NCBI GenBank assembly: GCA_016280445.1
Contig: JAEEGS010000044.1
Span: forward strand, 1-64,000
Reading direction: 5' to 3'
DNA: 64,000 nucleotides
Source of the DNA: Bacteroidaceae bacterium
GTDB taxonomy: Bacteria; Bacteroidota; Bacteroidia; Bacteroidales; Bacteroidaceae
Shown here: positions 28,795-43,825 of the stretch, piece by piece
How positions within the stretch are numbered: the stretch's first letter is position 1
Layout of the letters: each line of letters starts with the position of its first letter
The notes under the pieces: model-generated
The model's input: the letters and a program-made list of their open reading frames with translations, nothing else
The model's database searches: none
Told to the model about the DNA's origin: nothing
Translations under genes and position numbers: made by a program

Positions 28795-31170
28795 TCATTT
28801 CATCATTTCCAGTATTTTTACGAGATCCTCAAGGTTGCGGGCATCCACTTCTACGTCAAGCAGGTTGCCATCGCGGTTGAAGAGTTTGTAGGTGGGGAAC
28901 GAATGTACGTTCAGGTGACGTTCGATGGCGGCCTGTTGTTCGGCAGGCAGGTTGTAGTGAGCCACGTTGTCACCGCTCACGTTATACTCCTTGATGACGT
29001 TTTCCCACGAATCTTGAGGGCTTTGGTTGGCCAGATAGAGGAACTCGATGTCGTAGTCTTTCAGGCGTGCGTATTCTTCGGTGGAGTGCGAGAGGGCTTC
29101 CTTGCAAGGTCCGCACCACGTGCCCCAGATGTCGAGCAGCACGAACTTGCCCTTGTAAGGCTCAACGATTTTCTTCAGCAATGCCTCGCCTTCAGAGAGG
29201 TCTGCGAGGTTGTCGGACGACTTCAGCACCAGTTTGTCGAATTCTCTGTTTTCGAGGGCCACATAGTGGTTGTTTTTCTTTTCTGCTATCTCGATACAGA
29301 TAGGATTGGTCACAAGAGCCTTCAGCGTGTCCATCACTTCTGGGAGTAAAGAACAACGTCTGTGCTCAATCTCTTTGCACACCATTTGTGAGAGATACAT
29401 GTCCTTGATGAATGGAGATGCTTGGAGTGAGTCGAGCATCTGGAGATTGCCTTTCATCCTTGCCACCAGCAGTTGCCCACCCACGAGCCTCATGCCTTTA
29501 GAACCATTGAGAATCTTGTTTACCTGCTGAATCATGTCCGCATTCTTGGTGTTTAATTCCTCGGCCACTTTCATCTTCTCTTCTATTGTGGGCGCTTTTT
29601 CAACTGCTTCGTTGGCTTCGGCAATCCATTCCTTCCATCTTTTTAGCAAGGCCAGTTCCTCCTCGTTCGAGGCATATTCTTCAATATGGTCTTGGGGATT
29701 GATGGAGATTGAAGACTTCACGTTGTGGGCGGCATCGTCAAGATAGTCGGTGAGGAAATTGCTCAGGTCACGATGGAGAGTGTAAGGCTCTTCCATCTTT
29801 GTCCAGAAGGTTTCATAGGCATACTTGCGTGCGTTGTCAGGCAATTGGAACTGGGGAGCGCGGAAACGTGCCTGACCAAATTCGCGAGCCTGTTGAAAGC
29901 GTGTGTGGCCTTTGTGGTACAGGTTGAAGCGTGTAGAGAGTGTGGGATGTGCCTCGCAAAGCGCATCAATGTTTGCATACACCGCATTCAGCAGGCTATC
30001 GACAGAGACGATGTACTGGGCAAAAAATTCGGGCGTTCCTTCGCCAGCCCTGTCTCTCCCCACATTATTCCATCCGGTCGGATATTTGAAGAGTTCATTC
30101 TGCAGGCGGCAGTCGTCACCCATGAAGTAACGTCGTCCCTCCTTGAAGTCGTAGAGCAGGAAGTAGGTCTTGCCTGGTTCCAACATCATTTCGAGGAAGC
30201 AACGACGCCAGTCGCAGAAGAAGTCTGTACTGTTCAGCACCGGAATCTTCACCGTGAAGTGCCCCTGCTCGTCCAAGTCAGCATAGACAGATTCCTGTTC
30301 GCCGGTGAGGAAGTTCTCGAAACCGAACTCGAAGGTCTTGTCATTCTTGTATGCACCAGGCATGTCTTTAATCCAGCCCACCACCGTCACGGTATCCATC
30401 TTGTAGCCATTGTCGACGAACCCGGTGCGTGTGTCTTTTGTGGGGTAGTCAGGCATGAATCGGCTGGTTATCATGGAGTAAGTCACCTTCTGCTCGCCAA
30501 TCTGCATGGTGCGCTTGCCCTTTTTGTCTTTTCCCACCACAACCTTTATTTCCTTGTTGTCGCCATTGCTGAGCACCATCTCTGCCTCGCCCGTCTGAGG
30601 GTTCACGTTGCGTTGCTTATATGTCCAGAACAGGCAATCGTAGATGGCTCCCTCTTCCGTGAAGGCAATTTCCCAGTCGCCTGTCCGGTCATTGCGCCAA
30701 TAGGAGGGTAGCAGTTGTTTCCAACGCTCCTCCACAGGCTTGATGCCTATGATTTGGAAAGCGCCCAGTCCGTCGCCCTCGATGAAGTCAAACGACTTGG
30801 TGCCTTTAGGCAGAGCGGGGAAATGGAATGCCATCTCACGCTTGTTGTCCTTGCCCGTCTGCACGAACTTATTAAGTTCTATGCCGTCGGCTTTCACGAG
30901 CGGGTAGCGTTGGTCGCCCACCTTCAGATAGGTGTCGCCAGCAAACTGAAAGCAGAACTGCTCATAATCGGAACGTTCTGTCGCGGTGATATGCACCACA
31001 GTCTCGGTCTCCTTCAGTTCCACCTTCGTCACGTCAAGGGCGAGGTTGAAGTACCCGTCTCCGTAGTCAGTTCCATACTCAGTGGTGGGTTGTTCCCACA
31101 CAATTACTTTCTCTTTCGCTTGCCCCGCTAGCGCAAACAGGAAAAGAAGAGCGGTAAAGATAATTTTCAT
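28795..31170 (-). CDS. TlpA-like secreted thioredoxin-domain protein (TlpA1)
   Basis: 791 aa; signal peptide; C-terminal thioredoxin LLDIWGTWCGPCKEAL; N-terminal region homologous to the 33863-35731 product. Confidence 0.88.
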   Translation of the reverse strand: MKIIFTALLFLFALAGQAKEKVIVWEQPTTEYGTDYGDGYFNLALDVTKVELKETETVVHITATERSDYEQFCFQFAGDTYLKVGDQRYPLVKADGIELNKFVQTGKDNKREMAFHFPALPKGTKSFDFIEGDGLGAFQIIGIKPVEERWKQLLPSYWRNDRTGDWEIAFTEEGAIYDCLFWTYKQRNVNPQTGEAEMVLSNGDNKEIKVVVGKDKKGKRTMQIGEQKVTYSMITSRFMPDYPTKDTRTGFVDNGYKMDTVTVVGWIKDMPGAYKNDKTFEFGFENFLTGEQESVYADLDEQGHFTVKIPVLNSTDFFCDWRRCFLEMMLEPGKTYFLLYDFKEGRRYFMGDDCRLQNELFKYPTGWNNVGRDRAGEGTPEFFAQYIVSVDSLLNAVYANIDALCEAHPTLSTRFNLYHKGHTRFQQAREFGQARFRAPQFQLPDNARKYAYETFWTKMEEPYTLHRDLSNFLTDYLDDAAHNVKSSISINPQDHIEEYASNEEELALLKRWKEWIAEANEAVEKAPTIEEKMKVAEELNTKNADMIQQVNKILNGSKGMRLVGGQLLVARMKGNLQMLDSLQASPFIKDMYLSQMVCKEIEHRRCSLLPEVMDTLKALVTNPICIEIAEKKNNHYVALENREFDKLVLKSSDNLADLSEGEALLKKIVEPYKGKFVLLDIWGTWCGPCKEALSHSTEEYARLKDYDIEFLYLANQSPQDSWENVIKEYNVSGDNVAHYNLPAEQQAAIERHLNVHSFPTYKLFNRDGNLLDVEVDARNLEDLVKILEMMK

Positions 31171-31200
31171 GTTTATTTGTTATTGTTGCTATCATATATA

Positions 31201-31225
31201 ACGCAGTTCCTATGGAAAATGTGAC
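31201..31225 (-). promoter_or_regulatory. Candidate ECF promoter GTCACA-N15-GCGT of TlpA1
   Basis: Minus strand GTCACATTTTCCATAGGAACTGCGTTATAT; preceded by TTTAACG. Confidence 0.7.
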
Positions 31226-31276
31226 ATCAGGAAGCGTTAAATTTCCTTAACTTCGGAGGGGAAGCGAAAAAATCGC

Positions 31277-31284
31277 TACCTTTG
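31277..31284 (+). promoter_or_regulatory. Candidate -7 element TACCTTTG of recO
   Basis: TAnnTTTG 26 nt upstream of the recO start. Confidence 0.6.
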
Positions 31285-31309
31285 CCAAGCAAATTGCACA
31301 TGTGGTTCT

Positions 31310-32038
31310 ATGCAAGAGACACTTCGAGGCATCGTGTTGAGAACGGTGAAATATGGTGATGCATCCCTCATTGTCGATGTTTTCACAGAGAGTCGTGGAC
31401 GTCAGTCGTTCATGACCAGCACGACGCGTGCCAAACGTTCCGTGCGTAGCGTGTCTTTCTGGCAACCGCTGTCGATGGTGGAGTTCAGCGCCGAACTTCG
31501 TCCCAATGCGGGCAAACTTCCACGCCCAGCCGATGTGCATGCCTATTATAATTACACCGACCTTCCCTTTTCGCCCGTCAAGTCCTCTTTGGCGCTCTTT
31601 CTGGCCGAGTTCCTCAGTGCCGCCCTGCGCGAGGAAAAGGAAAATCCTCTCTTATTTAAATATGTGGAGTCCTCCCTTCAGTGGCTCGATATGGTCGATT
31701 CGCCTGCATCGATGGCCAACTTCCACGTTGCCTTCCTCATGCACCTCAGCCGCTTCATCGGCATCTATCCCAATTTAGAACGTCCCGATCGGTTTTTCGA
31801 CCTCCTTGCAGGCTCCTATTGCGATCGCCAACCTCCTCACGCCCATTTCCTTCGTGATGCAGAGGCGCGTGCCCTTCCCACGCTTTTCCGTATGGATTAT
31901 CCCACCATGCACCTTTTCCGTCTCTCGCGACAGGAGCGCCAACGCATTCTTCATGTCCTCAACGAGTATTATCGCCTCCACATCCCCAACTTTCCTGAAC
32001 TGAAATCTTTGGAGGTCTTGCAGGAACTTTATTCCTGA
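31310..32038 (+). CDS. recO: DNA repair protein RecO
   Basis: 242 aa; TLRGIVLRTVKYGDASLIVDVFTESRG N-terminal OB fold typical of RecO. Confidence 0.93.
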   Translation: MQETLRGIVLRTVKYGDASLIVDVFTESRGRQSFMTSTTRAKRSVRSVSFWQPLSMVEFSAELRPNAGKLPRPADVHAYYNYTDLPFSPVKSSLALFLAEFLSAALREEKENPLLFKYVESSLQWLDMVDSPASMANFHVAFLMHLSRFIGIYPNLERPDRFFDLLAGSYCDRQPPHAHFLRDAEARALPTLFRMDYPTMHLFRLSRQERQRILHVLNEYYRLHIPNFPELKSLEVLQELYS

Positions 32039-32094
32039 AAAAGTGGAACTGACACTTCCTCCCTTTCCTCACTTCCATCACCTCCCGCACCCTT

Positions 32095-32195
32095 CTTCCA
32101 CTGCCTCAAAAACGGTGTGACTCACACCGACCCTATCGGTCTGACTCAGACCGCCACCCTCGGTGTGACTCACACCGATTTCGAGGTAGTGGAAG
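32095..32195. repeat. Tripartite 17-nt palindrome element (copy 2)
   Basis: CGGTGTGACTCACACCG (32113-32129), CGGTCTGACTCAGACCG (32137-32153), CGGTGTGACTCACACCG (32161-32177), spacers of exactly 7 nt; flanks CTTCCACTGCCTCAAAA / TTTCGAGGTAGTGGAAG. Confidence 0.9.
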
Positions 32196-32356
32196 GGAGG
32201 CACAAGAGGTTGTTGCGTTGAGGTAGCGGTGGTTCTTACAGTGCTCCTTTTGAAAGGTTGGAAGGGGAGGGCCATTCATGAAGAAAACGTTGGTTTGAGG
32301 TGAAATAAATGGGAAAATGTTTGGTGGTTTGAAAAAAAGTTCGTACTTTTGTACAC

Positions 32357-32409
32357 AATATATGATGCGCTATTCTGTAAAATCTAAATTTATGCATAAT
32401 ATATGATGC
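32357..32409 (+). promoter_or_regulatory. Putative HipB operator pair (AATATATGATGC direct repeat)
   Basis: AATATATGATGC at 32357-32368 and 32398-32409, just downstream of TACTTTTG (32344-32351) and overlapping the hipB start. Confidence 0.55.
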
Positions 32410-32717
32410 AGAACAAGTATGTGTTTGACCCCTATCCGCTACAGGTGACGATGCAGCGGTTGGCTGAAAATCTGAAGGCTCGCAGGTTGGAGAAGAAAAT
32501 CTCGACGAAAAGCCTGTCGGAGATGAGTGGTGTGCCCGCATCCAGCATCCAGCGTTTCGAACTGAAGCACTCCATCTCTTTGGAGTCGTATGTGAAACTG
32601 GCCAAAGCCCTTGGCTACTCCGAGGACATCATGCTGCTGCTGTCTGAACCAAAATATGACACGATGGAGGAACTGTTGGAAATCAACAAAAACAAAACCA
32701 GAAAGAGAGGTGTGTGA
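32403..32717 (+). CDS. hipB: HipB-like HTH antitoxin
   Basis: 104 aa XRE-type HTH (STKSLSEMSGVPASSIQRFELKHSISLESYVKLAKALGY); overlaps the hipA start. Confidence 0.8.
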   Translation: MMQNKYVFDPYPLQVTMQRLAENLKARRLEKKISTKSLSEMSGVPASSIQRFELKHSISLESYVKLAKALGYSEDIMLLLSEPKYDTMEELLEINKNKTRKRGV

Positions 32718-33802
32718 TGAAAGATTTGCAATCAGTCATCGTGACTTATCATGGGAGGAAAGTCGGTGTGCTTTCCACCGGTAGCAAGCAGTCCTGTCAG
32801 TTTGAGTACGATAAGGATTGGCTTGCCGATGGCTTTTCCATTTCTCCATTGAAACTGCCTCTGAAGGCAGGTCTCTTTACCGCCGACTATCGCCCCTTCA
32901 ACGGGAACTTCGGTGTGTTTGAGGACAGCCTTCCTGGTGGTTATGGTGAGTATCTGCTTCGAAAGGTTCTCAGCAAATCGGGCATCAACTACGGAGCGTT
33001 GACCCCTGTTCAGCGATTGAGTCTTGTGGGCAGTTCGGGCATGGGTGCTCTCTGTTATGTCCCAGAGGTCAAGACACCTCAAAGCGACTGGCAGGGTTCG
33101 TTTGATGAGATGCAGCAGATGGCGCTCAATGTCCTGTCGGAGAAGACGGAAGAACATGCCGATGCGCTCTTCTTCCGAAGCGGCAACTCTGGCGGTGTCC
33201 GTCCGAAATGCATCTATACGGATTCGGAAGGTCATTGGCTGGTGAAGTTCCGTCACACCTACGACCCCAAGAACATCGGGGAGATGGAATACAAATACAA
33301 TCAGGTGGCCCGCCAGTGTGGCATCATCGTGCCTGATTTCAAACTGATGGATGGCAAATACTTTGCCACGCGCCGATTTGACATGGAAGATGGCAAGCGG
33401 TTTCATGTGGTGACAGCCAGTGGATTGCTCAACGAACCTATCCGCCCTCCCAAGATGGATTACCACAGCCTGTTGCAGTTGACGGGTTATCTCACGCAGT
33501 CGCCCGCTGAGGTGGAGCAGCAGTTCCGCAGAATGGCTTTTAATGTCTATGCCCACAACTACGACGACCATGCCCGCAACTTCAGTTTCATTTGCCGAGA
33601 TGGGGTGTGGACATTGGCTCCTGCTTACGACTTGACCAACGACAACACCTTGAGCGAACATGCCTCGACGGTCAACTATAAAGGACTCCCTACAGACGAA
33701 GACATGATAACTGTGGGGACCAATATCCGCATCACTCGCCCTCGCTGTATGGAGATACTCAAAGAAGTGAGGGAAGGAACAAAAGAACTTTTGTTTATTT
33801 AA
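32714..33802 (+). CDS. hipA: HipA-like serine/threonine kinase toxin
   Basis: 362 aa; N-terminal coupling region (FEDSLPGGYGEYLL), catalytic NYDDHARNFSF and APAYDLTNDN motifs of HipA. Confidence 0.88.
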   Translation: MMKDLQSVIVTYHGRKVGVLSTGSKQSCQFEYDKDWLADGFSISPLKLPLKAGLFTADYRPFNGNFGVFEDSLPGGYGEYLLRKVLSKSGINYGALTPVQRLSLVGSSGMGALCYVPEVKTPQSDWQGSFDEMQQMALNVLSEKTEEHADALFFRSGNSGGVRPKCIYTDSEGHWLVKFRHTYDPKNIGEMEYKYNQVARQCGIIVPDFKLMDGKYFATRRFDMEDGKRFHVVTASGLLNEPIRPPKMDYHSLLQLTGYLTQSPAEVEQQFRRMAFNVYAHNYDDHARNFSFICRDGVWTLAPAYDLTNDNTLSEHASTVNYKGLPTDEDMITVGTNIRITRPRCMEILKEVREGTKELLFI

Positions 33803-33812
33803 CGTTTTTTGT

Positions 33813-33837
33813 GTCACATTTTCCGTGTGTGCTGCGT
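33813..33837 (+). promoter_or_regulatory. Candidate ECF promoter GTCACA-N15-GCGT of TlpA2
   Basis: GTCACATTTTCCGTGTGTGCTGCGTTATAT; preceded by TTTAACG. Confidence 0.7.
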
Positions 33838-33862
33838 TATATAGGGTGTAATCATCTATAAA

Positions 33863-35731
33863 ATGAATATGAAACAAATGATCATCACCGCATTGCTGGC
33901 TCTTGTGGCAATGACGGGAAAGGCACAAAAGTCGGTTGTGTGGGAGAAACCATCGGCTTTTATGGGAAGGTTTAACTCGGAGTTTGTCATCACTAAGGTG
34001 GAGATGAAGCAGACGGAAACAGTGCTGCATGTCGATGCCAACTATAATCCGGGCAGTTGGATTCGCTTTGCCAAGGAGTCGTTCTTGCAGACACCTGACG
34101 GCAAAAAGTATGTCATTACAGGTGGCGAGGCTACCACAGAGAAGGAGTTCGACTTGGTACCTGACTCCCTCTTCTGGATGCCCCAAAGCGGAAAGGCAAG
34201 CCTTGCCCTTCACTTCAAACCCGTACCGCTCGACACGAAGGAGCTGGATTTCTCAGAAGGTGATTTCGAGGGCTCTTTCCAGTTCTGGAATATTTGCGAC
34301 AGCAAGACCAAGAAGAAACAGGAACTGCCTGCCGATTGGCAAAATGTGACCTACGCCAAAGACGAGACGCTGCCTGCCGCTAAGATCAACAAAGGTGTGG
34401 CGACCATCAAAGTGAAGATGCTGGGTTATAAGCCTGGCATGAAACTGGAGTTTTATGTGGGCGGTTTCAAACCTTTAGGTTCCAGAGAGCGTGTGGATAA
34501 GTTCTACACGTTTGCCAACGATGGTACCCTGAAGGTTGAAATGCCCCTGTGGCTGACTCGTGAGGTAGCTGTTGGTGTTCAAGGTATGGCATTCTCCAAG
34601 ATCGTGATCGCCCCAGGTCAAGAAACCTCCATCTTGATGAAGGTTTCTACAGACAATCGTCCGTTCATCGCTTTCAAGGGCTATCTTGCCAAGACCAACA
34701 TGGACTTAGTTGATGCCGACAACACTTTCGAACCTTATAGTATGGACGAAGAAAACTTCCTCAAAGTCAGGAAGTGCAAGACCAAGGAAGAACGCTTACA
34801 ATGCCTGACGGATATCTTCAACCAGCGTGTGGCTGCTTTCAAGAAGACCAAATATACGACAGCCGCCAAAGACCTGCTCTGTATGGCTGCAGAAGAAAAC
34901 TACATCAACTGGTCACGTCAGTTTGCCGTCAATTATTGCCAACATAGATTGGATGAAGATGGAACGGTTTATATGACCAGTATGGATTTCCAAGAGAATT
35001 ACCAGAAAAATAAGGATCTTCTTCCCTTGTCGGAAGAAGAAAGGGCATACACGTGGAAGTATCTGAATGAACCAGGCTCCCCTTGTAGCAGAGTGTTCTG
35101 GGATACCACTCTGAGTGCTTATGATAAGCAGCTGGTAAAACAACCCAATTATAATTTGGATCTTCAGTTGGTACCAACGCTTTTGGAGAATGATGATGAA
35201 CAATTTGTCAATCGTGTGCTTCAGACAATGAAGCATGAGGACTGCAAGGCCGTTATTCTCGAATATCAGGCAGAACAACAACGCATCGCCCAGCAACTGA
35301 CCAGTCAGGAGAGCGTATTCTTCCAGAAGTACGACGATGTGGCTCCTGAAAACATCCTCCAAACCATTCTTGACAAGTATAAGGGCAAGACGGTTGTGAT
35401 AGACATTTGGGCAACCTGGTGTGGTCCTTGTCGTGCAGGCCATCAGGCAATGAAACCGATGAAAGAAGAGATGAAGGGCAAGAACATCCAGTTTGTCTAT
35501 ATCACTTCTCCTACCTCGCCTCTGAATACTTGGCAGGAGATGATCAAGGATATTGATGGCGACCACTACTATCTGACCAAGGAGCAGTACAGCTATGTCC
35601 TTAACAAGTATGAGTCAGAGGGTATTCCCACCTATGCCATCTACGACAAAAATGGCAATCAGACCTTCAAGACCATCGGCTTCCCAGGTCTCGAACCAAT
35701 CAAGACGGAGATAGAGAAAGCTATGCTATAA
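33863..35731 (+). CDS. TlpA-like secreted thioredoxin-domain protein (TlpA2)
   Basis: 622 aa; signal peptide; VIDIWATWCGPCRAGH thioredoxin motif; N-terminus parallels TlpA1 (VVWEKP...KVEMKQTETVLH). Confidence 0.9.
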   Translation: MNMKQMIITALLALVAMTGKAQKSVVWEKPSAFMGRFNSEFVITKVEMKQTETVLHVDANYNPGSWIRFAKESFLQTPDGKKYVITGGEATTEKEFDLVPDSLFWMPQSGKASLALHFKPVPLDTKELDFSEGDFEGSFQFWNICDSKTKKKQELPADWQNVTYAKDETLPAAKINKGVATIKVKMLGYKPGMKLEFYVGGFKPLGSRERVDKFYTFANDGTLKVEMPLWLTREVAVGVQGMAFSKIVIAPGQETSILMKVSTDNRPFIAFKGYLAKTNMDLVDADNTFEPYSMDEENFLKVRKCKTKEERLQCLTDIFNQRVAAFKKTKYTTAAKDLLCMAAEENYINWSRQFAVNYCQHRLDEDGTVYMTSMDFQENYQKNKDLLPLSEEERAYTWKYLNEPGSPCSRVFWDTTLSAYDKQLVKQPNYNLDLQLVPTLLENDDEQFVNRVLQTMKHEDCKAVILEYQAEQQRIAQQLTSQESVFFQKYDDVAPENILQTILDKYKGKTVVIDIWATWCGPCRAGHQAMKPMKEEMKGKNIQFVYITSPTSPLNTWQEMIKDIDGDHYYLTKEQYSYVLNKYESEGIPTYAIYDKNGNQTFKTIGFPGLEPIKTEIEKAML

Positions 35732-35754
35732 GAAATGCAGGAAACGCTGAGGGG

Positions 35755-35870
35755 CACCGTTCTCAACACGATGCCTCGCAGGGTTTCTTGCATACCACAA
35801 CTGCTATTTGCGTGGCAAAGGTAGCGAAATTTTCGCTTCCCTCCCGCAGTTAGGGAAATTTAATGCTTGC
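35755..35870 (-). pseudogene. Inverted, truncated copy of the recO promoter and 5' end
   Basis: Reverse complement reads TTAAATTTCCCTAACTGCGGGAGGGAAGCGAAAATTTCGCTACCTTTGCCACGCAAATAGCAGTTGTGGTATGCAAGAAACCCTGCGAGGCATCGTGTTGAGAACGGTG, parallel to 31236-31348. Confidence 0.85.
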
Positions 35871-36034
35871 CCAACGATTATATTATAGGTGTGGTGGCGG
35901 AAAACTGAAGAGATTGAGCCATTCTTGTGGCGAAATATTGGGAGAAATACATCTGCATGTGTATCGTTCGCTCCGCGCAAGGTACTCACGTTCGGAATTA
36001 TTCAAATAAATTTGATATTTCTCTCACTTAATCG

Positions 36035-36042
36035 TACCTTTG
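36035..36042 (+). promoter_or_regulatory. Candidate -7 element TACCTTTG
   Basis: TAnnTTTG upstream of the 36075 gene. Confidence 0.5.
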
Positions 36043-36074
36043 TCCACGTTTTATTAACCTAAACTGAAAGAACT

Positions 36075-36629
36075 ATGGCAAAGATTCTCTTTATCGTTGG
36101 GTCGTTGAGGGCAAAGTCCTTCAACCGCCAGTTGGCCAATGCAGCCAAAGCCATTATCGGCAACCGTGCCGAGGTGGCAGAACTCGACTACAGCGACCTT
36201 CCGCTCCTCAATCAGGACATTGAGCAGCCAGAACCTGCTGCTGTGGCTCGAATCCGCCAAACCATCACGGATGCCGATGCGCTGTGGATTTTCACACCTG
36301 AGTACAACCTCAGTTATCCGGGTCATGTGAAGAACCTGCTCGACTGGATGTCCCGTCCGGTGAAACCGCTGGATTACGCTACACCTACCTGCATCAACGG
36401 CAAGAAAGTGGCGGTCAGCGGTGCGGGCGGTAAGTTTGCCACAGCCAACAGTCGTGCCAAACTGTCCGAACTCCTCACGTTCATCAAAGCGAACCTCTTG
36501 CCCGAACAGACGGGTGTGGCTGTCAATCCCGAAGCATGGGCCACTGATGTTCTCACTCTGACTGACGAGCAGAAGGCCGAACTGACTGCCCAAGCAGAGG
36601 CGCTGCTGAAGGCTCTCGCAGTTTCTTGA
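36075..36629 (+). CDS. NADPH-dependent FMN reductase family protein
   Basis: 184 aa flavodoxin-like; LFIVGSLRAKSFNRQLANAA, FTPEYNLSYPGHVKNLLDW motifs. Confidence 0.92.
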   Translation: MAKILFIVGSLRAKSFNRQLANAAKAIIGNRAEVAELDYSDLPLLNQDIEQPEPAAVARIRQTITDADALWIFTPEYNLSYPGHVKNLLDWMSRPVKPLDYATPTCINGKKVAVSGAGGKFATANSRAKLSELLTFIKANLLPEQTGVAVNPEAWATDVLTLTDEQKAELTAQAEALLKALAVS

Positions 36630-36754
36630 TGACAGAATCCCCTTTCTCCCCTAAAAGAGTTTAAAAGCGAGGGGGCATCTGCTAAAGAAAAATAAAAAAG
36701 TTGTGAGAGTCAGCGGGTTGGCTTACCTTTGTGGCGTTTCCCGTAACTCTCTCC

Positions 36755-38011
36755 ATGAATAAGTCGTGTATATATTATATATGTGTAGCCATCTGCCTGT
36801 TGCAGACGGCTACATTGTTTGCTGTCCCTCTGCCGCAGTCGAAACCTGTACACATTGAGGTGAGGCACGGGTGGGGTGGCAGTCATGTCATGTACTTCTG
36901 GCTGACAGACTTGTACACGAAGGAGGAGAAGAAGGTGAGGTCGGAGTATCGGGGCAGCGGGGTGGAGGTGCTGAACTTTGACCTTTACCACCCGTTGTAC
37001 GATGAGTTGGTGGTGGGTGGCAGCAGGCGTGTCCCTTTCTATGTGGAACCAGGCGACACACTCATTATCCGTTTGGAGAAAAACGGCGCTGTTGAGGGGT
37101 ATGAGCGAAAGGATGGCACTCCTGCGAAGTACAGGAACCTGCTGCTGCACGACATTTCCAATCGGATGTTCTACACCCAGAAGGATTTCGAGAAGGACAA
37201 GGAAGGATGCCTCTTTCCTGCTTTTGTGGAAAAGGTGACAGGGAGGATGCAGTTGGCTCTCGACAGTGTGAGCCATGTGGCCGACAGATACGGCTTTACG
37301 GCCGAGGAACGGAATCTGGCGCGATGCAATGTGCAGATGCAGTTTGCCTTGTGGATATTTGAGTATGCGCCCATGAAGACGTCCGAGCTTCTTGTGTATG
37401 CGAATCAGCACGAAGGTGGGTGGCAGAGTTTGCCTGAGCAGGACAGGGAGATAGAGGCGATTCAAGACCTCCGCAACTATGGCTTTATGCGCGACTTGTC
37501 GCTGAACGACAGCACCTTTCTCGCCTCGAAGTTCTTTCCGCTTTTCATGCTGAGTTACGAACACACCCAGGCATTGAACTATGACCAGTACCTGTATGTT
37601 GGCACAACCGCCGATGCTGTTGCCCGCATGGATTCTGCTTTTGTGGCAAAGGATATGGTCATCACCCATCTTGATAAACCTTCTCTTTTCATGGATATGG
37701 CGATGGTGCGTCGTCATGTTGAGGTGCCCCCTCCTGTGGATGATGGCAGCATTCAGTTGCAGGAGGTGCAGGTGATGGGCACCAATCTCGACCAGTTCTA
37801 TCGCGTGTTTGGCAGGTCGGAATACAATCCCGAAGAAGTGGTGAGACGGGTATGGGGGCACGATGTGAACCTGAAAGGCCCACTCTCGTCGCTCGTTAAT
37901 CGCAAGAAAATCAAACGTTATAAACGTGCCAAGAAACTCGTGGAGCAATATGGCGCTGACGATGCTGAACGGGAGGCGTTGATGCGGGCTTATGAGGGAA
38001 TGAAAAAGTGA
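36755..38011 (+). CDS. Secreted hypothetical protein, resembles the middle region of TlpA-like proteins but lacks thioredoxin
   Basis: Signal peptide MNKSCIYYICVAICLLQTATLFA; VEPGDTLIIRLE segment parallels TlpA1 LEPGKTYFLLYDF; no CxxC. Confidence 0.7.
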   Translation: MNKSCIYYICVAICLLQTATLFAVPLPQSKPVHIEVRHGWGGSHVMYFWLTDLYTKEEKKVRSEYRGSGVEVLNFDLYHPLYDELVVGGSRRVPFYVEPGDTLIIRLEKNGAVEGYERKDGTPAKYRNLLLHDISNRMFYTQKDFEKDKEGCLFPAFVEKVTGRMQLALDSVSHVADRYGFTAEERNLARCNVQMQFALWIFEYAPMKTSELLVYANQHEGGWQSLPEQDREIEAIQDLRNYGFMRDLSLNDSTFLASKFFPLFMLSYEHTQALNYDQYLYVGTTADAVARMDSAFVAKDMVITHLDKPSLFMDMAMVRRHVEVPPPVDDGSIQLQEVQVMGTNLDQFYRVFGRSEYNPEEVVRRVWGHDVNLKGPLSSLVNRKKIKRYKRAKKLVEQYGADDAEREALMRAYEGMKK

Positions 38012-38036
38012 ATTAATCATTTTTAACGCTATCCGT

Positions 38037-38061
38037 GTCACAAATAGGTTCCTTTCTGCGT
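38037..38061 (+). promoter_or_regulatory. Candidate ECF promoter GTCACA-N15-GCGT of the OMP gene
   Basis: GTCACAAATAGGTTCCTTTCTGCGTATATAT; preceded by TTTAACG. Confidence 0.7.
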
Positions 38062-38095
38062 ATATATCAGTAGCAAACTTTACAAAGAAAGAAGG

Positions 38096-41000
38096 ATGAA
38101 ACCAACCAAGAGTGTAAGCTTGACGCTGCTTTTTATGCTGTTGTCAATGCTGACGATGGCACAAGAGAGTAAAACCGATACCGTCAAGACAGACATGGTG
38201 AAAACGAAGGAACGTGCCCTGCAAGTGGTCGCAGAAGTGAAAGACCACATGACCCATGACCCCATCAAAGGTGTGAAGGGTGAACTGCTTTATGCGGCTG
38301 ACAGCACCTTTGCTGACACGTTGGAGATACGCTACGAGGAAGAGGGGGATTGGAAATATAGCTACTTTATTTCTCGTATCAAGCGGGCGGGCAATTATCT
38401 TGTCAGGTTGGAAGCCGAGGGCTACCAACCGATGTATGTGCCCCTTGACATCAAGAAACTCTACAAGCACGAGCAACATCGCAGTTTGAAGACGGTCTAT
38501 CTGCGGAAGATACCTAAGAAGAATGAAATAGAACTGGATGAGGTGGTTGTCACAGCCACGAAACTGAAGTTCTATATGGACGGCGACACGCTCGTCTATG
38601 ATGCCGATGCGTTCAATATGGCGGAAGGTTCCATGCTGGATGCGCTCTTGAAGAAGTTGCCCGGTGTGGAGGTGGAGCAGGGTGGTGTCATCAAGGTGAA
38701 CGGCCGTCAGATAGATGCCCTGCTGCTCAATGGAAAAGACTTCTTCGACAGCGACCGGGAGTTGCTGTTGGAGAACATGCCCACCTACATGGTGAAGAAC
38801 GTGCAGAGTTATGAGCGTGTGCCCGACGAGGTGAAGGGGACGAACCGCGAGAAGAGCACTCCAAAGGAACTGGTGATGAATGTGAAATTGAAGAAGGAGT
38901 ATAGCAAAGGTTGGATTGCCAATGCCGATGTGGGCGGTGGAGCCACCTTCTTCAAGAACACGGAAGGAAAGCATGACGGTAAGTATCTCGGCCGACTCTT
39001 TGGCATGCGGTTTACCGACAACAGCCGCTTGGCACTCTTTGCCAATGTGAACAACTTGAACGACTACCGCACCCCTGGAGAGAAAGGTGAGTGGTCGCCG
39101 CTCACACAGTCGGAAGGACTGACCAAACAGGTGCAGGTGGGTGCCAACTATCGTACCGAGAAAGAAGACCACTACCGTTATGAGGGCAGCATCAAAACCA
39201 GCTATGCTGACAAGGAAGATGCTAACAACACCAGCAGCGAGACCTACCTTGACAACGGCAGCACGTTTGGTCGTTCCTTCTATGGCAAGCGGAGTTACGA
39301 CTGGCAAGTGGAATCGCAGCACAATTACAACTACTATCACCGTGAACCCGTTGGCGATTGGCTCAAATATTTCCAGTTCAGCCTTCAACCCTATTTCCAA
39401 TATCTGAAGTGGAATAATCACACGCAGTCAGCCAGTGTCACGCTGTCGGAAGATGTAGCATCGAATCTGGGCAAGGCCTGGATGGACAGCATCGTGGCTC
39501 CCAATGCCGGCGAACTGCTGAGAAAGTATACCATTAACCGAACCATCAACCGCACCAAGGGTGTCGGGCATTGGCTCGAAGGCAGCAGTTTTGGTTATTT
39601 TTCCACTACTCCTGCCCATAATGACTACATTGACTTGTTTACGGTATTTCGATTCAGTCTTACCGACAAACAAGAGGACAACTACTCCCACAACCTCTAT
39701 GAGTATGCTGCAACTTCGTCTCAGCCCACAGACTTCCGTAACCGCTTCAATCCTACTGAAGCCCGAACACGTTCTTTCTATGTGGACCCTCGACTGATGA
39801 TTGCCTTAGACGAGAAGCACCACCATAACCTCAACTTCGAATACACCTACAACTACGCTTACAACTACAGCAACAGCCCTCTCTACTTGTTGAACAAACT
39901 GGCAGAATGGGACAATGCGGAAAATCATGCCTTGGGCACACTCCCTTCGGTGGATGAGATGTTGACCACACTGGATGCCAACAACACTTCGCGCTCCACT
40001 ACCACCACCCATACGCATACGCCAAGAGCGGGCTACACCTTCAGCAAGAACAGCGAAGATGCTTATTCCATGCTAGAACTTTCCCTGAATGTACCCTTCC
40101 GCCACGAAAGCCTCGACTACCAGCGGGGCTCACAGGTGGATACGCTGATGCGACGCAACACCGCCTTTCTCTCGCCTAGAATCCGCTTCTTTCACAGCAA
40201 CTGGAAACGGAACCGAAGCATTCAAGCGAACTACTCCATGGAGACTTCGGCACCAGCGATGACCAATCTGCTCGACATCCGCGATGACTCCAATCCTCTC
40301 TATATCACTTTGGGTAATCCGAACCTGAAGAATACCCGTCGGCATAACCTCAATGGCGACTATCACGATAAGTTCGGCAAAACGCTTTTCAATGTCGGCA
40401 TCGGTGCCACTCTCACAGAGAACGCTGTGGCTTCGGGCTTCATCTACAACAAGGAGACAGGTGTACGCACTGTCACCCCCGACAATGTGAATGGCAACTG
40501 GAACATGAATGCTTCGTCAGGTGTTGACTTTCCGTTGGACAAGAACGACCGCTTCCGTCTGAAGGAGAATGTTTCCTATAACCACACTCGCAGCGTTGAC
40601 TTGAGCGGTACCAACGAGAGCCTCGTTGCGACACGCTCTGTGGTCACTACAAATCTGTTCGACGAGAGTCTCGCCTTCAGTTGGAAGCCAACCAGCAAGA
40701 TGGAGTACGGCATCAATGGTAAACTGAACTATCAGCACTCTGTCAGTCAGCGTGAAGGCTTCACCAACATCAACGCGTTCACCTATCAGTACGGTGTGAG
40801 CGGGCAGGTGGAGTTGCCGTGGAACATTCAAGTGTCTACCGACCTGACTATGTACAGCCGACGTGGCTATAGCGAAGCAGCCATGAACACGAATGAACTC
40901 GTATGGAATGCCCGTCTCTCCAAACGTCTGCCCAAGCAGAACCTAACCATCCTCTTTGATGGTTTCGACCTGCTTGGTAAACTCTCCAACGTGCGTCGTT

Positions 41001-41104
41001 ACATCAATGCTCAAGGTCGTACAGAGACTTTCTACAACGTCATTCCTTCCTATGGCCTTCTTCATGTGATTTATCGTCTAAACAAAGAACCGAAGAAAAA
41101 GTAG
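38096..41104 (+). CDS. Outer membrane beta-barrel protein with TonB-plug-like region
   Basis: 1002 aa; signal peptide; carboxypeptidase-regulatory-like N-terminus; LDEVVVTATKLKF, LLKKLPGVEVEQGGVIKVNGRQIDALLLNGKDFF. Confidence 0.88.
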   Translation: MKPTKSVSLTLLFMLLSMLTMAQESKTDTVKTDMVKTKERALQVVAEVKDHMTHDPIKGVKGELLYAADSTFADTLEIRYEEEGDWKYSYFISRIKRAGNYLVRLEAEGYQPMYVPLDIKKLYKHEQHRSLKTVYLRKIPKKNEIELDEVVVTATKLKFYMDGDTLVYDADAFNMAEGSMLDALLKKLPGVEVEQGGVIKVNGRQIDALLLNGKDFFDSDRELLLENMPTYMVKNVQSYERVPDEVKGTNREKSTPKELVMNVKLKKEYSKGWIANADVGGGATFFKNTEGKHDGKYLGRLFGMRFTDNSRLALFANVNNLNDYRTPGEKGEWSPLTQSEGLTKQVQVGANYRTEKEDHYRYEGSIKTSYADKEDANNTSSETYLDNGSTFGRSFYGKRSYDWQVESQHNYNYYHREPVGDWLKYFQFSLQPYFQYLKWNNHTQSASVTLSEDVASNLGKAWMDSIVAPNAGELLRKYTINRTINRTKGVGHWLEGSSFGYFSTTPAHNDYIDLFTVFRFSLTDKQEDNYSHNLYEYAATSSQPTDFRNRFNPTEARTRSFYVDPRLMIALDEKHHHNLNFEYTYNYAYNYSNSPLYLLNKLAEWDNAENHALGTLPSVDEMLTTLDANNTSRSTTTTHTHTPRAGYTFSKNSEDAYSMLELSLNVPFRHESLDYQRGSQVDTLMRRNTAFLSPRIRFFHSNWKRNRSIQANYSMETSAPAMTNLLDIRDDSNPLYITLGNPNLKNTRRHNLNGDYHDKFGKTLFNVGIGATLTENAVASGFIYNKETGVRTVTPDNVNGNWNMNASSGVDFPLDKNDRFRLKENVSYNHTRSVDLSGTNESLVATRSVVTTNLFDESLAFSWKPTSKMEYGINGKLNYQHSVSQREGFTNINAFTYQYGVSGQVELPWNIQVSTDLTMYSRRGYSEAAMNTNELVWNARLSKRLPKQNLTILFDGFDLLGKLSNVRRYINAQGRTETFYNVIPSYGLLHVIYRLNKEPKKK

Positions 41105-41122
41105 ATTTTTTGTCGTTTTTCT

Positions 41123-41147
41123 GTCACAAAAAGCCGTAACTTTGCGT
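41123..41147 (+). promoter_or_regulatory. Candidate ECF promoter GTCACA-N15-GCGT (autoregulatory) upstream of the ECF sigma gene
   Basis: GTCACAAAAAGCCGTAACTTTGCGTCATGTA; overlaps a TAACTTTG (41136-41143) housekeeping-like box. Confidence 0.6.
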
Positions 41148-41193
41148 CATGTAATCAGAAAGCCCTCCTGAGAAGGATGGGAAGATCTAAGTC

Positions 41194-41676
41194 ATGACGA
41201 TAGAGACATTCAAAGAAAAGGCTCATACAATGCGCCCGATGCTAATGGCCACTGCCCGACGGATTGTGGGCGATGAAGCGGAGGCTGAGGACTTGGTGCA
41301 AGATGCGCTGCTGCGGTTGTGGCAGTTGCGTGATGAACCTATCCAGAATGTGGAAGGAATGGCAAGGGTGGTGGTGCGGCATCTGAGTTATGACGCGGTA
41401 AGGCGACGGCATGAGTGTGTCGCCATCGAGGAGACAGATGTGGCGGACAATTCACCATCCGAAGGACTGACAGATGTGGAGGTGCGGATGATGACACTGG
41501 TCGGTCAGTTGCCCACTCTGCAGCAGACGGTGTTGCGGCTCCGACACGTGGAGGAGATGGAGATGAGGGAAATTGCCGAACTCATCGGCGCGACGGAGGC
41601 GATGGTGAGACAATCGCTGAGCAGGGCACGACGGAAACTATTGGAACAATTTACACAAAAAGGATTGAGCAGATGA
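41194..41676 (+). CDS. ECF-type RNA polymerase sigma factor
   Basis: 160 aa; sigma2 DEAEAEDLVQDALLRLWQL, sigma4 LPTLQQTVLRLRHVEEMEMREIAELIGATEAMVRQSLSRARRKL. Confidence 0.95.
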   Translation: MTIETFKEKAHTMRPMLMATARRIVGDEAEAEDLVQDALLRLWQLRDEPIQNVEGMARVVVRHLSYDAVRRRHECVAIEETDVADNSPSEGLTDVEVRMMTLVGQLPTLQQTVLRLRHVEEMEMREIAELIGATEAMVRQSLSRARRKLLEQFTQKGLSR

Positions 41677-42683
41677 AAGAACAACATATATATACGTTGG
41701 TGGAGCGTTTCCTTGAAGGGGAGACGACGCTGGAGGAGGAACGGAGGCTTTACGCTTTCTTCCAGCGGGATGATGTGCCCGAGGAGATGAAGGAATATCA
41801 AGAGATGTTCAGGGCATACGCAGCCATCGCTCAGAAAACGGCAAAGAAACAGGTGATGCGCCCCATCTGGCTTCGTGTGACAAGCATAGCAGCGGCGGCA
41901 TGCCTAGTGGCGGTTTCGCTGATTGGATATAACTTGTATACAGAAAAGACTTCCAGCCCCCAAGGTGAGGTTCGGTTGGTCAAGAACGAGAAGTCAAAGC
42001 AAGGTGGAGAAAAGGTGGTTGCCACTCAAATGTCACCAAATCCTCCTGAAAATCTGTTGGCAGAGCAAGTGAAGCAGCCTCAGCAACCGAAGGTGAGAAG
42101 GGGGAGGCAGAAAGAGACCATAGCCCAAGAGAGGGTGGAAACAGTTTCTTCCGTGCAGACACCTTCCATAGGGATGATACATCAGGTCAGTAACCCTGTG
42201 AGTGACCTTTCCGAGGGAAACTTCATCTATGCATCCAACGATACGAAGGTGGATACCGTTCCTTATCAGGATCCTGCTCGGGTGGACGAATTTATAACCA
42301 AGTTCGCCAATTATTACCAAGTGAAGGAGGGGGAACTGAAGTGTTCCGTTCCGAAGGACAGTTGTGTGGTCAGCGCCGTTTATGTCTTTCCTGATAAAAA
42401 AGAAGTGGATGTCTTCGGACGATTGTTGCAGGCTGCTTGTTGGTATAACGATGCGACACCTGGATACCTCCTGACCTTCTCGCATCAGCAGTTCTTCTTT
42501 GAACTGAAAGATATGCGGAAGCAGTTGCAATATCGCTGGATAGCAGAGCGTGTGAATGGTAAGATACTGCTTTACAGCACCCGCTCACCCATCAATGTTT
42601 CTGTCTCATCGACCTGCTATCAGGCATATAGAGAAGAATTGATGCACGCAAAGAGTATTAACATTAAAAATGTAGACATATGA
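41673..42683 (+). CDS. Putative membrane anti-sigma factor
   Basis: ATGA overlap with the sigma gene; N-terminal cytoplasmic helix region, one TM (VTSIAAAACLVAVSLIGYNLY), extracytoplasmic C-terminal domain; start reset from 41415 to ATG 41673. Confidence 0.75.
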   Translation: MKEQHIYTLVERFLEGETTLEEERRLYAFFQRDDVPEEMKEYQEMFRAYAAIAQKTAKKQVMRPIWLRVTSIAAAACLVAVSLIGYNLYTEKTSSPQGEVRLVKNEKSKQGGEKVVATQMSPNPPENLLAEQVKQPQQPKVRRGRQKETIAQERVETVSSVQTPSIGMIHQVSNPVSDLSEGNFIYASNDTKVDTVPYQDPARVDEFITKFANYYQVKEGELKCSVPKDSCVVSAVYVFPDKKEVDVFGRLLQAACWYNDATPGYLLTFSHQQFFFELKDMRKQLQYRWIAERVNGKILLYSTRSPINVSVSSTCYQAYREELMHAKSINIKNVDI

Positions 42684-43825
42684 AAAAAGTGATGATTCTT
42701 GGCCTTCTGGCTTTTTGTAGCATCGCCATGCAGGCACAACCGAAAGATGTGAAGTTTCTGGCAAAGGCCCCAGGTGTCTATATGGTGCCTTGTCCTGAAG
42801 CCGTCGTGGACAAGAAAACTAAGAAAAAGACGATTGTTTGGCCTGACACGGAGAACAACTCGTGGCATGAGAACATGGGCATGATAGACAACGTCCCCAC
42901 AATTGACAACTTTGAGAGTATTTTCCCAGAGTCCCATATCCCTAATAATTCTTCTTACAGTCCTGTGGTATGGCTGTTGACGGAGGAGAACGACGAGACT
43001 GTGCTGCATTGCTACTTCCGTATGCCTGCCGATGTGGTGACCAACATGTGGCTGGTAAGCAACGAGTGTGTCATTCTTGATAAAGAGACAGGCACCATCT
43101 ATCAGTCGCGCCGTACAAATCCCGACTGCTATGGCAAAGTGTTTAGCGTGAAGGCGAAAGAAGGAAGCATTCTTGACTTCCAGATCTTTTTCCCAAAACT
43201 GGAGGAGAATACCAAAGAGATTTGTATTTACGGTGTTCCCAACTGGTACATGCGAGGTATGGATGTGACGCTGTATGAGGCACGACAGAAGTTTTTTGGA
43301 ACCAAGTTGGGCTATGATGACGTGCCGCAGTTCCATAAGGCGCATCTTGTCAGCGAGGCGAAGGACTACAACAAGGACAACCATAAGTCGTGGGCTGTAT
43401 ACGACGACGCACACCTTATCAAGCCAGTGAAGGAGGGAACAATGGCCATTTGGTGCACTCCTGATGCCACCTATCTGGCTGTGGCCACTGAGATGAATTG
43501 GATGAGAGAGTATTTTGGTCGTGGTGGCAACAACATGCTCATCGATTCATCAGGACATCAATATAAGTGTAAGGATGTATTAGGCTATCCGAATGAAAAA
43601 CTCTTCTGGCTGGAAGGTTGTACAGGCGACTACTTCGCCATCGTGCAGGTGTTCGAACCTGTGCCGCTCAGCATCGAAACGATTACCTATATCGTACCGG
43701 AGGGTGAACCCTTTGCTATGTGGGGAGCAAATTGGAGTGGCGAAGTCCATCCAGACCTCAACATACAAGAACTTCGTGATAACCAAAAACTCTTTGAGTA
43801 TCACGAAAGGGTGATTAAAAAATAA
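42680..43825 (+). CDS. Secreted hypothetical protein in the ECF operon sharing the ETVLH-type N-terminal domain of the TlpA-like proteins
   Basis: ATGA overlap with upstream gene; signal peptide; ENDETVLHCYFRMPADVVTNMW...LDFQIFFPKLEENTKEICIYG. Confidence 0.7.
   Translation: MKKVMILGLLAFCSIAMQAQPKDVKFLAKAPGVYMVPCPEAVVDKKTKKKTIVWPDTENNSWHENMGMIDNVPTIDNFESIFPESHIPNNSSYSPVVWLLTEENDETVLHCYFRMPADVVTNMWLVSNECVILDKETGTIYQSRRTNPDCYGKVFSVKAKEGSILDFQIFFPKLEENTKEICIYGVPNWYMRGMDVTLYEARQKFFGTKLGYDDVPQFHKAHLVSEAKDYNKDNHKSWAVYDDAHLIKPVKEGTMAIWCTPDATYLAVATEMNWMREYFGRGGNNMLIDSSGHQYKCKDVLGYPNEKLFWLEGCTGDYFAIVQVFEPVPLSIETITYIVPEGEPFAMWGANWSGEVHPDLNIQELRDNQKLFEYHERVIKK

Follow-up and report, generated by a model that had tools for sequence, protein, structure and literature searches.

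This locus raises the question of whether four copies of one bipartite motif are the promoters of a single regulon read by the ECF sigma factor that is encoded beside them. In the window, meaning the whole stretch of 64,000 nt that was analyzed, GTCACA-N15-GCGT occurs at 31201-31225 on the minus strand and at 33813-33837, 38037-38061 and 41123-41147 on the plus strand, with the constant 15-nt gap described in the first-pass annotation, and a scan of the full window found no fifth exact site. A T precedes both GTCACA and GCGT in all four copies, so that TGTCACA-N16-CGT(T/A/C) describes the element better, as does, more fully, TGTCACA-N15/16-CGT(A/T/C).

Each copy lies upstream of a gene. The putative TlpA1 promoter (31197-31226, minus strand; -35 TGTCACA at 31220-31226, 16-nt spacer, -10 CGTTATA) precedes a gene for a secreted protein of 791 aa with a thioredoxin-like domain at its C-terminus (28795-31170, minus strand), and that of TlpA2 (33812-33841, plus strand; -35 TGTCACA at 33812-33818, -10 CGTTATA) precedes a gene for a secreted protein of 622 aa, likewise ending in a thioredoxin-like domain (33863-35731, plus strand). 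The third candidate promoter (38036-38065, plus strand; -35 TGTCACA at 38036-38042, -10 CGTATAT) belongs to a gene for an outer membrane beta-barrel protein (OMP; OMP_b-brl_3, 1002 aa; 38096-41104, plus strand), and the fourth (41122-41150, plus strand; -35 TGTCACA at 41122-41128, -10 CGTCAT), which is conserved in orthologues, to the ECF sigma factor gene itself (41194-41676, plus strand). As had been noted earlier, a TTTAACG box accompanies the first three copies (31235-31241, 33798-33804 and 38022-38028), placed 9, 8 and 8 nt before GTCACA for TlpA1, TlpA2 and the OMP gene, respectively; it is without counterpart in the sigma promoter of the window.

Against the four exact sites, 400 dinucleotide shuffles of the window contained 0.175 on average and never more than 2. 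With up to two mismatches there was no enrichment (60 matches in the window versus 63.8 expected), and thus the signal is confined to the exact form. The home genome (3.07 Mb) holds ten exact sites where chance predicts about six, and four of them fall within these 10 kb, where 0.02 would be expected; in the stricter form TGTCACA-N14-TGCGT, only two further exact sites accompany the four of the window. Chance recurrence of a short pattern, which the six other exact sites might suggest since they about equal the chance yield, is already refuted and vanishingly improbable in view of this clustering and of the family-wide footprint before sigma orthologues described below.

ECF (group 4) sigma factors consist of regions 2 and 4 only and span about 160-200 aa. 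The sigma factor of the window belongs to this group, with Pfam domains Sigma70_r2 and Sigma70_r4_2 in 160 aa. It scores just above the cut-off of NCBIfam family NF058625, named after Porphyromonas gingivalis PG0214 (about 135 bits, 134.1-135.1, versus 130), and genomes of this genus contain 4-13 matches to the family. Four orthologues (G035, G041, G030 and G007) score below the cut-off, so family membership is marginal. As in the PG0214 family, the sigma factor is paired with a small membrane protein resembling an anti-sigma factor, here of 336 aa and encoded with a 4-nt overlap (41673-42683, plus strand). The N-terminus of this protein, predicted to be cytoplasmic, is conserved in orthologues, and a single hydrophobic stretch near residues 67-85 would span the membrane; a Pfam search returned no match at all, and hence no anti-sigma domain. 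It is probably the anti-sigma factor that would hold the sigma. A third gene of the conserved operon encodes a secreted protein of 381 aa with no assigned family (42680-43825, plus strand). Beyond the genus, relatives again have genes for a small membrane protein and for further small secreted proteins after the sigma gene, indicating that the pairing of sigma and membrane partner is general and that the TlpA/OMP targets are not. The leader of the sigma mRNA (41151-41190 in the window; L012, L014-L017) is strongly conserved in five orthologues of the genus, reading ATGTAATCAGAAAGCCCTYCTG..., though not in G035, and possibly forms a small hairpin.

The strongest evidence comes from the promoter of the sigma gene. 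Thirty-one orthologous sigma genes from about ten genera, with 41-97% identity to the window sigma, were compared; 21 lie outside the genus and were taken at E below 1e-30 across the family, and those within it share 60-97% identity, with G027 in addition at 44%. Directly upstream of the start codon, 28 of the 31 carry TGTCACA-N15/16-(C/T)GT. Of the three exceptions, two show AGTCACA or TGTTACA at similar spacing and one has nothing comparable. Sixty other ECF genes from this NCBIfam family served as a control and all lacked the element, a difference (Fisher P about 2e-20) whose significance is overstated because the test ignores relatedness. In a phylogenetic tree all 31 orthologues fall on one branch (95/95), as a set that had been picked by similarity to the query. 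Within the genus both boxes, TGTCACA and CGT (in G027, TGT), are retained at the same spacing, and in several orthologues the two boxes persist where the flanking DNA has diverged, in agreement with the earlier proposals of a rigid bipartite ECF promoter and of autoregulation. The regulon motif thus stands in the sigma factor's own promoter, the arrangement of an autoregulated ECF system. Other ECF paralogues, inspected by eye in their intergenic leaders, have different -35 regions (e.g. CAACTTAA, TTGTTTAA, TTTGACTT), and CGTATA or CGTTAT (CGTNTA) recurs as their -10, which suggests that it is the -35 box that would discriminate between the paralogues.

The first-pass annotation had cautioned that the sigma-gene copy overlaps a housekeeping-like box. 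The overlap is real, as TAACTTTG lies on the -10 of the sigma promoter, but it is not a conserved feature: of the 28 orthologous promoters, only 8 contain TAnnTTTG, which is absent or broken in the other 20, among them those of G041 and G030, where the box reads CACCTCTG and TGTCACA and CGT are intact. The retention in eight orthologues leaves only a very small probability that the sigma gene is read from a housekeeping promoter at this site and that GTCACA and GCGT are incidental there. An overlapping basal housekeeping promoter is possible in the home species, and the conserved element is a different one. Taken together, the orthologue comparison and the rarity of the housekeeping box make autoregulation through TGTCACA well supported, in that the sigma gene would activate itself through this element.

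Divergence of the spacers had been cited against an origin of the four copies by duplication. This holds for the OMP and sigma gene promoters, and for two further promoters found elsewhere in the genome (C21 and C81), whose spacers are identical at 2-7 of 15 positions. It fails for TlpA1 and TlpA2, whose spacers agree at 10 of 15 positions inside a 32-nt block of 84% identity, so these two promoters are not independent. That block, and the similar signal-peptide DNA of the paralogues, would be expected if the sites were common through copying of promoter-bearing segments among TlpA paralogues and not through a factor that reads them. Given the unrelated spacers of the other four promoters, we assign this explanation a small probability overall; for the sigma promoter it is largely refuted by the sequence comparison, since recent copying cannot explain an element conserved across about ten genera.

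Exchange of coding segments behind such a promoter may have occurred at the TlpA2 locus, as a comparison with the sister species G011 shows. Its DNA is 98.4% identical to window positions 31309-33931, a stretch that runs from recO across the promoter and includes the whole signal peptide; at the TlpA2 locus (L244, G011:C38, 2246-3715) the mature secreted protein is 24% identical in the aligned part, and 91% DNA identity resumes at 35899. We tentatively suggest that the ECF promoter and the signal-peptide 5' end may form a fixed expression cassette and that the mature TlpA-like parts may be swapped by recombination. An inverted repeat of 85-87% identity (31232-31348 and 35755-35868) flanks recO, hipBA and TlpA2, its right copy (35755-35868) including a decayed recO/TlpA1 intergenic region with TTTAATG and no TGTCACA. 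A 75%-identical piece of the recO 3' end is found past the sigma operon, on its downstream side, in G011 (L108, G011:C51, 6498-6810), and recO is the immediate upstream neighbor of the sigma gene in G015, which together point to repeated rearrangement around recO.

To delimit the regulon, the home genome was scanned without bias for TGTCACA-N15..17-CGT, a pattern search that, as opposed to a weight matrix, may miss diverged targets. The scan returned 25 matches, compared to 15 for a control pattern. Seven of these lie between genes, 51-77 nt ahead of a start codon, a position in which chance would place 0.17 for an assumed total of 2,500 genes; among the other 18, most fall within or across an open reading frame of at least 80 codons, and one that does not (L223) lies in an apparent terminator with no start downstream. 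In addition to the four promoters of the window, the seven include three outside it (C76:2049, C81:51414 and C21:81332), and the regulon, although small, is not local as had been supposed. Apart from the sigma and OMP genes, every gene that follows one of the seven matches encodes a secreted protein. The C76 and C81 products are secreted and end in a thioredoxin-like domain, as do TlpA1 and TlpA2; the C21 product has the N-terminus of a secreted protein and no Pfam match. Four of the five secreted-protein targets other than the OMP thus have a thioredoxin-type domain, a functional coherence in keeping with the grouping of two thioredoxin-type proteins and an OMP in the first-pass annotation.

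We consider it likely, on comparative grounds, that the four sites are the promoters of one ECF sigma regulon that includes the sigma gene. In the mechanism that we propose, the membrane protein encoded beside the sigma factor would hold it by anti-sigma action; once released, the sigma would direct RNA polymerase to TGTCACA (-35) and, after 15-16 nt, CGT(A/T/C) (-10), and would switch on its own operon and, in this species, the OMP gene, TlpA1, TlpA2 and the three secreted-protein genes elsewhere. The trigger may be a stress signal.

Several observations do not fit a fixed set of targets. Three genomes (G006, G043 and G019, the last only 83% complete) retain TTTAACG-TGTCACA-CGTATAT or close forms before TlpA-type genes, and their best matches to the sigma do not exceed about 40% identity. 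In the TlpA1 orthologues of G034, G031, G016 and G028 (L188, L191, L192 and L193) the -35 reads TGCAATG within the same frame, with TTAAC(G/A) upstream and CGTATAT or TGTATAT downstream, which looks like a takeover by a different sigma. Five further relatives that do have the sigma (G035, G021, G041, G030 and G014) yield, under strict patterns, little besides the sigma gene's own promoter, and the sister species G011 has other DNA in place of the OMP promoter. These cases indicate that target membership turns over quickly. The replacing DNA in G011 (L244 1-136 / L108 1-138), roughly 150 nt with GGAAGATA/TATCTTCC-like inverted repeats, is possibly a small mobile repeat. Outside the genus, the motif was not found at OMP homologues of 30-59% identity.

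Another factor may therefore read some of the TlpA/OMP promoters. The fullest form of this explanation, which we regard as unlikely though with an appreciable probability, is that the sigma autoregulates via TGTCACA and the TlpA/OMP promoters are read mainly by another ECF sigma or need a TTTAACG-binding activator, the common -35 being partly coincidental or inherited. It would account for the three genomes with a TlpA-type promoter and no close sigma orthologue and for the four with TGCAATG, and it draws on the presence of TTTAACG at the three window targets and not at the window's sigma promoter, as well as on the several ECF paralogues with similar CGTNTA -10 boxes. However, both kinds of promoter occur together in the home and sister genomes, none of the 60 other sampled ECF genes has TGTCACA at its own promoter, and TTTAAC also precedes the sigma gene in G021, G015, G007 and G275. 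The TTTAACG box may be the site of a second protein. It is a local feature, since in a search of 399 family genomes TTAACG-N6..8-TGTCACA rose above background level only in a few species of the genus. Several target promoters (window 31230-31250; L240, L241, L246 and L247) also display a pair of TTAA(C/G)-like boxes, separated by 10 nt and immediately preceding the -35, as in TTTAACGATATTTAACG, an arrangement suggestive of an activator site.

To our knowledge, ECF sigma factors are abundant in Bacteroidaceae and few have a known promoter. For PG0214 itself the papers found gave no promoter, and among sampled members of its family the TGTCACA own-promoter is found in the window's clade only, with TlpA/OMP targets specific to a few species. 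In the literature accessible to our search, we found no report of this promoter for Bacteroidaceae. The closest known element is the experimentally tested ECF41 consensus promoter, TGTCACA-n16-CGTC (PMC3426412), which the sigma gene matches at 41122-41148 with an identical -35, the same spacing of 16 +/- 1 and the same CGTC -10. ECF41 proteins carry a fused C-terminal regulatory domain and have a COE gene as neighbor (PMC3426412). We rejected assignment of the window sigma to ECF41, as it ends after region 4 at 160 aa without such a domain and has a separate membrane partner instead. TGTCACA has been described as specific for ECF41 (PMC3426412), and the present sigma would thus represent a second ECF clade using it. 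EcfO-Reo of Bacteroides and CirYZ of Phocaeicola, from the same order, are likewise ECF sigma/anti-sigma pairs with surface or periplasmic targets; compared by description, these are NigD lipoproteins for EcfO and a Spy-like chaperone for CirYZ (PMC13114119), as opposed to TlpA and OMP proteins here. SigW-1 and SigH-1 of B. thetaiotaomicron also govern ECF regulons with non-housekeeping promoters, and the accessible part of that report describes a non-canonical -30/-10 promoter with a motif centered on TGTT at -10 and does not mention TGTCACA (PMC12596196).

A sigma promoter set that includes the sigma's own gene is a new example of a familiar bacterial circuit, with an unusually clean cross-genus footprint. 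A -35/-10 pair that holds across about ten genera and is specific to one clade among paralogues provides a testable assignment of sigma to promoter, and the motif offers a read-out of the regulon in any relative. Finally, it ties secreted thioredoxin-type proteins of unassigned role to what is likely one regulator.
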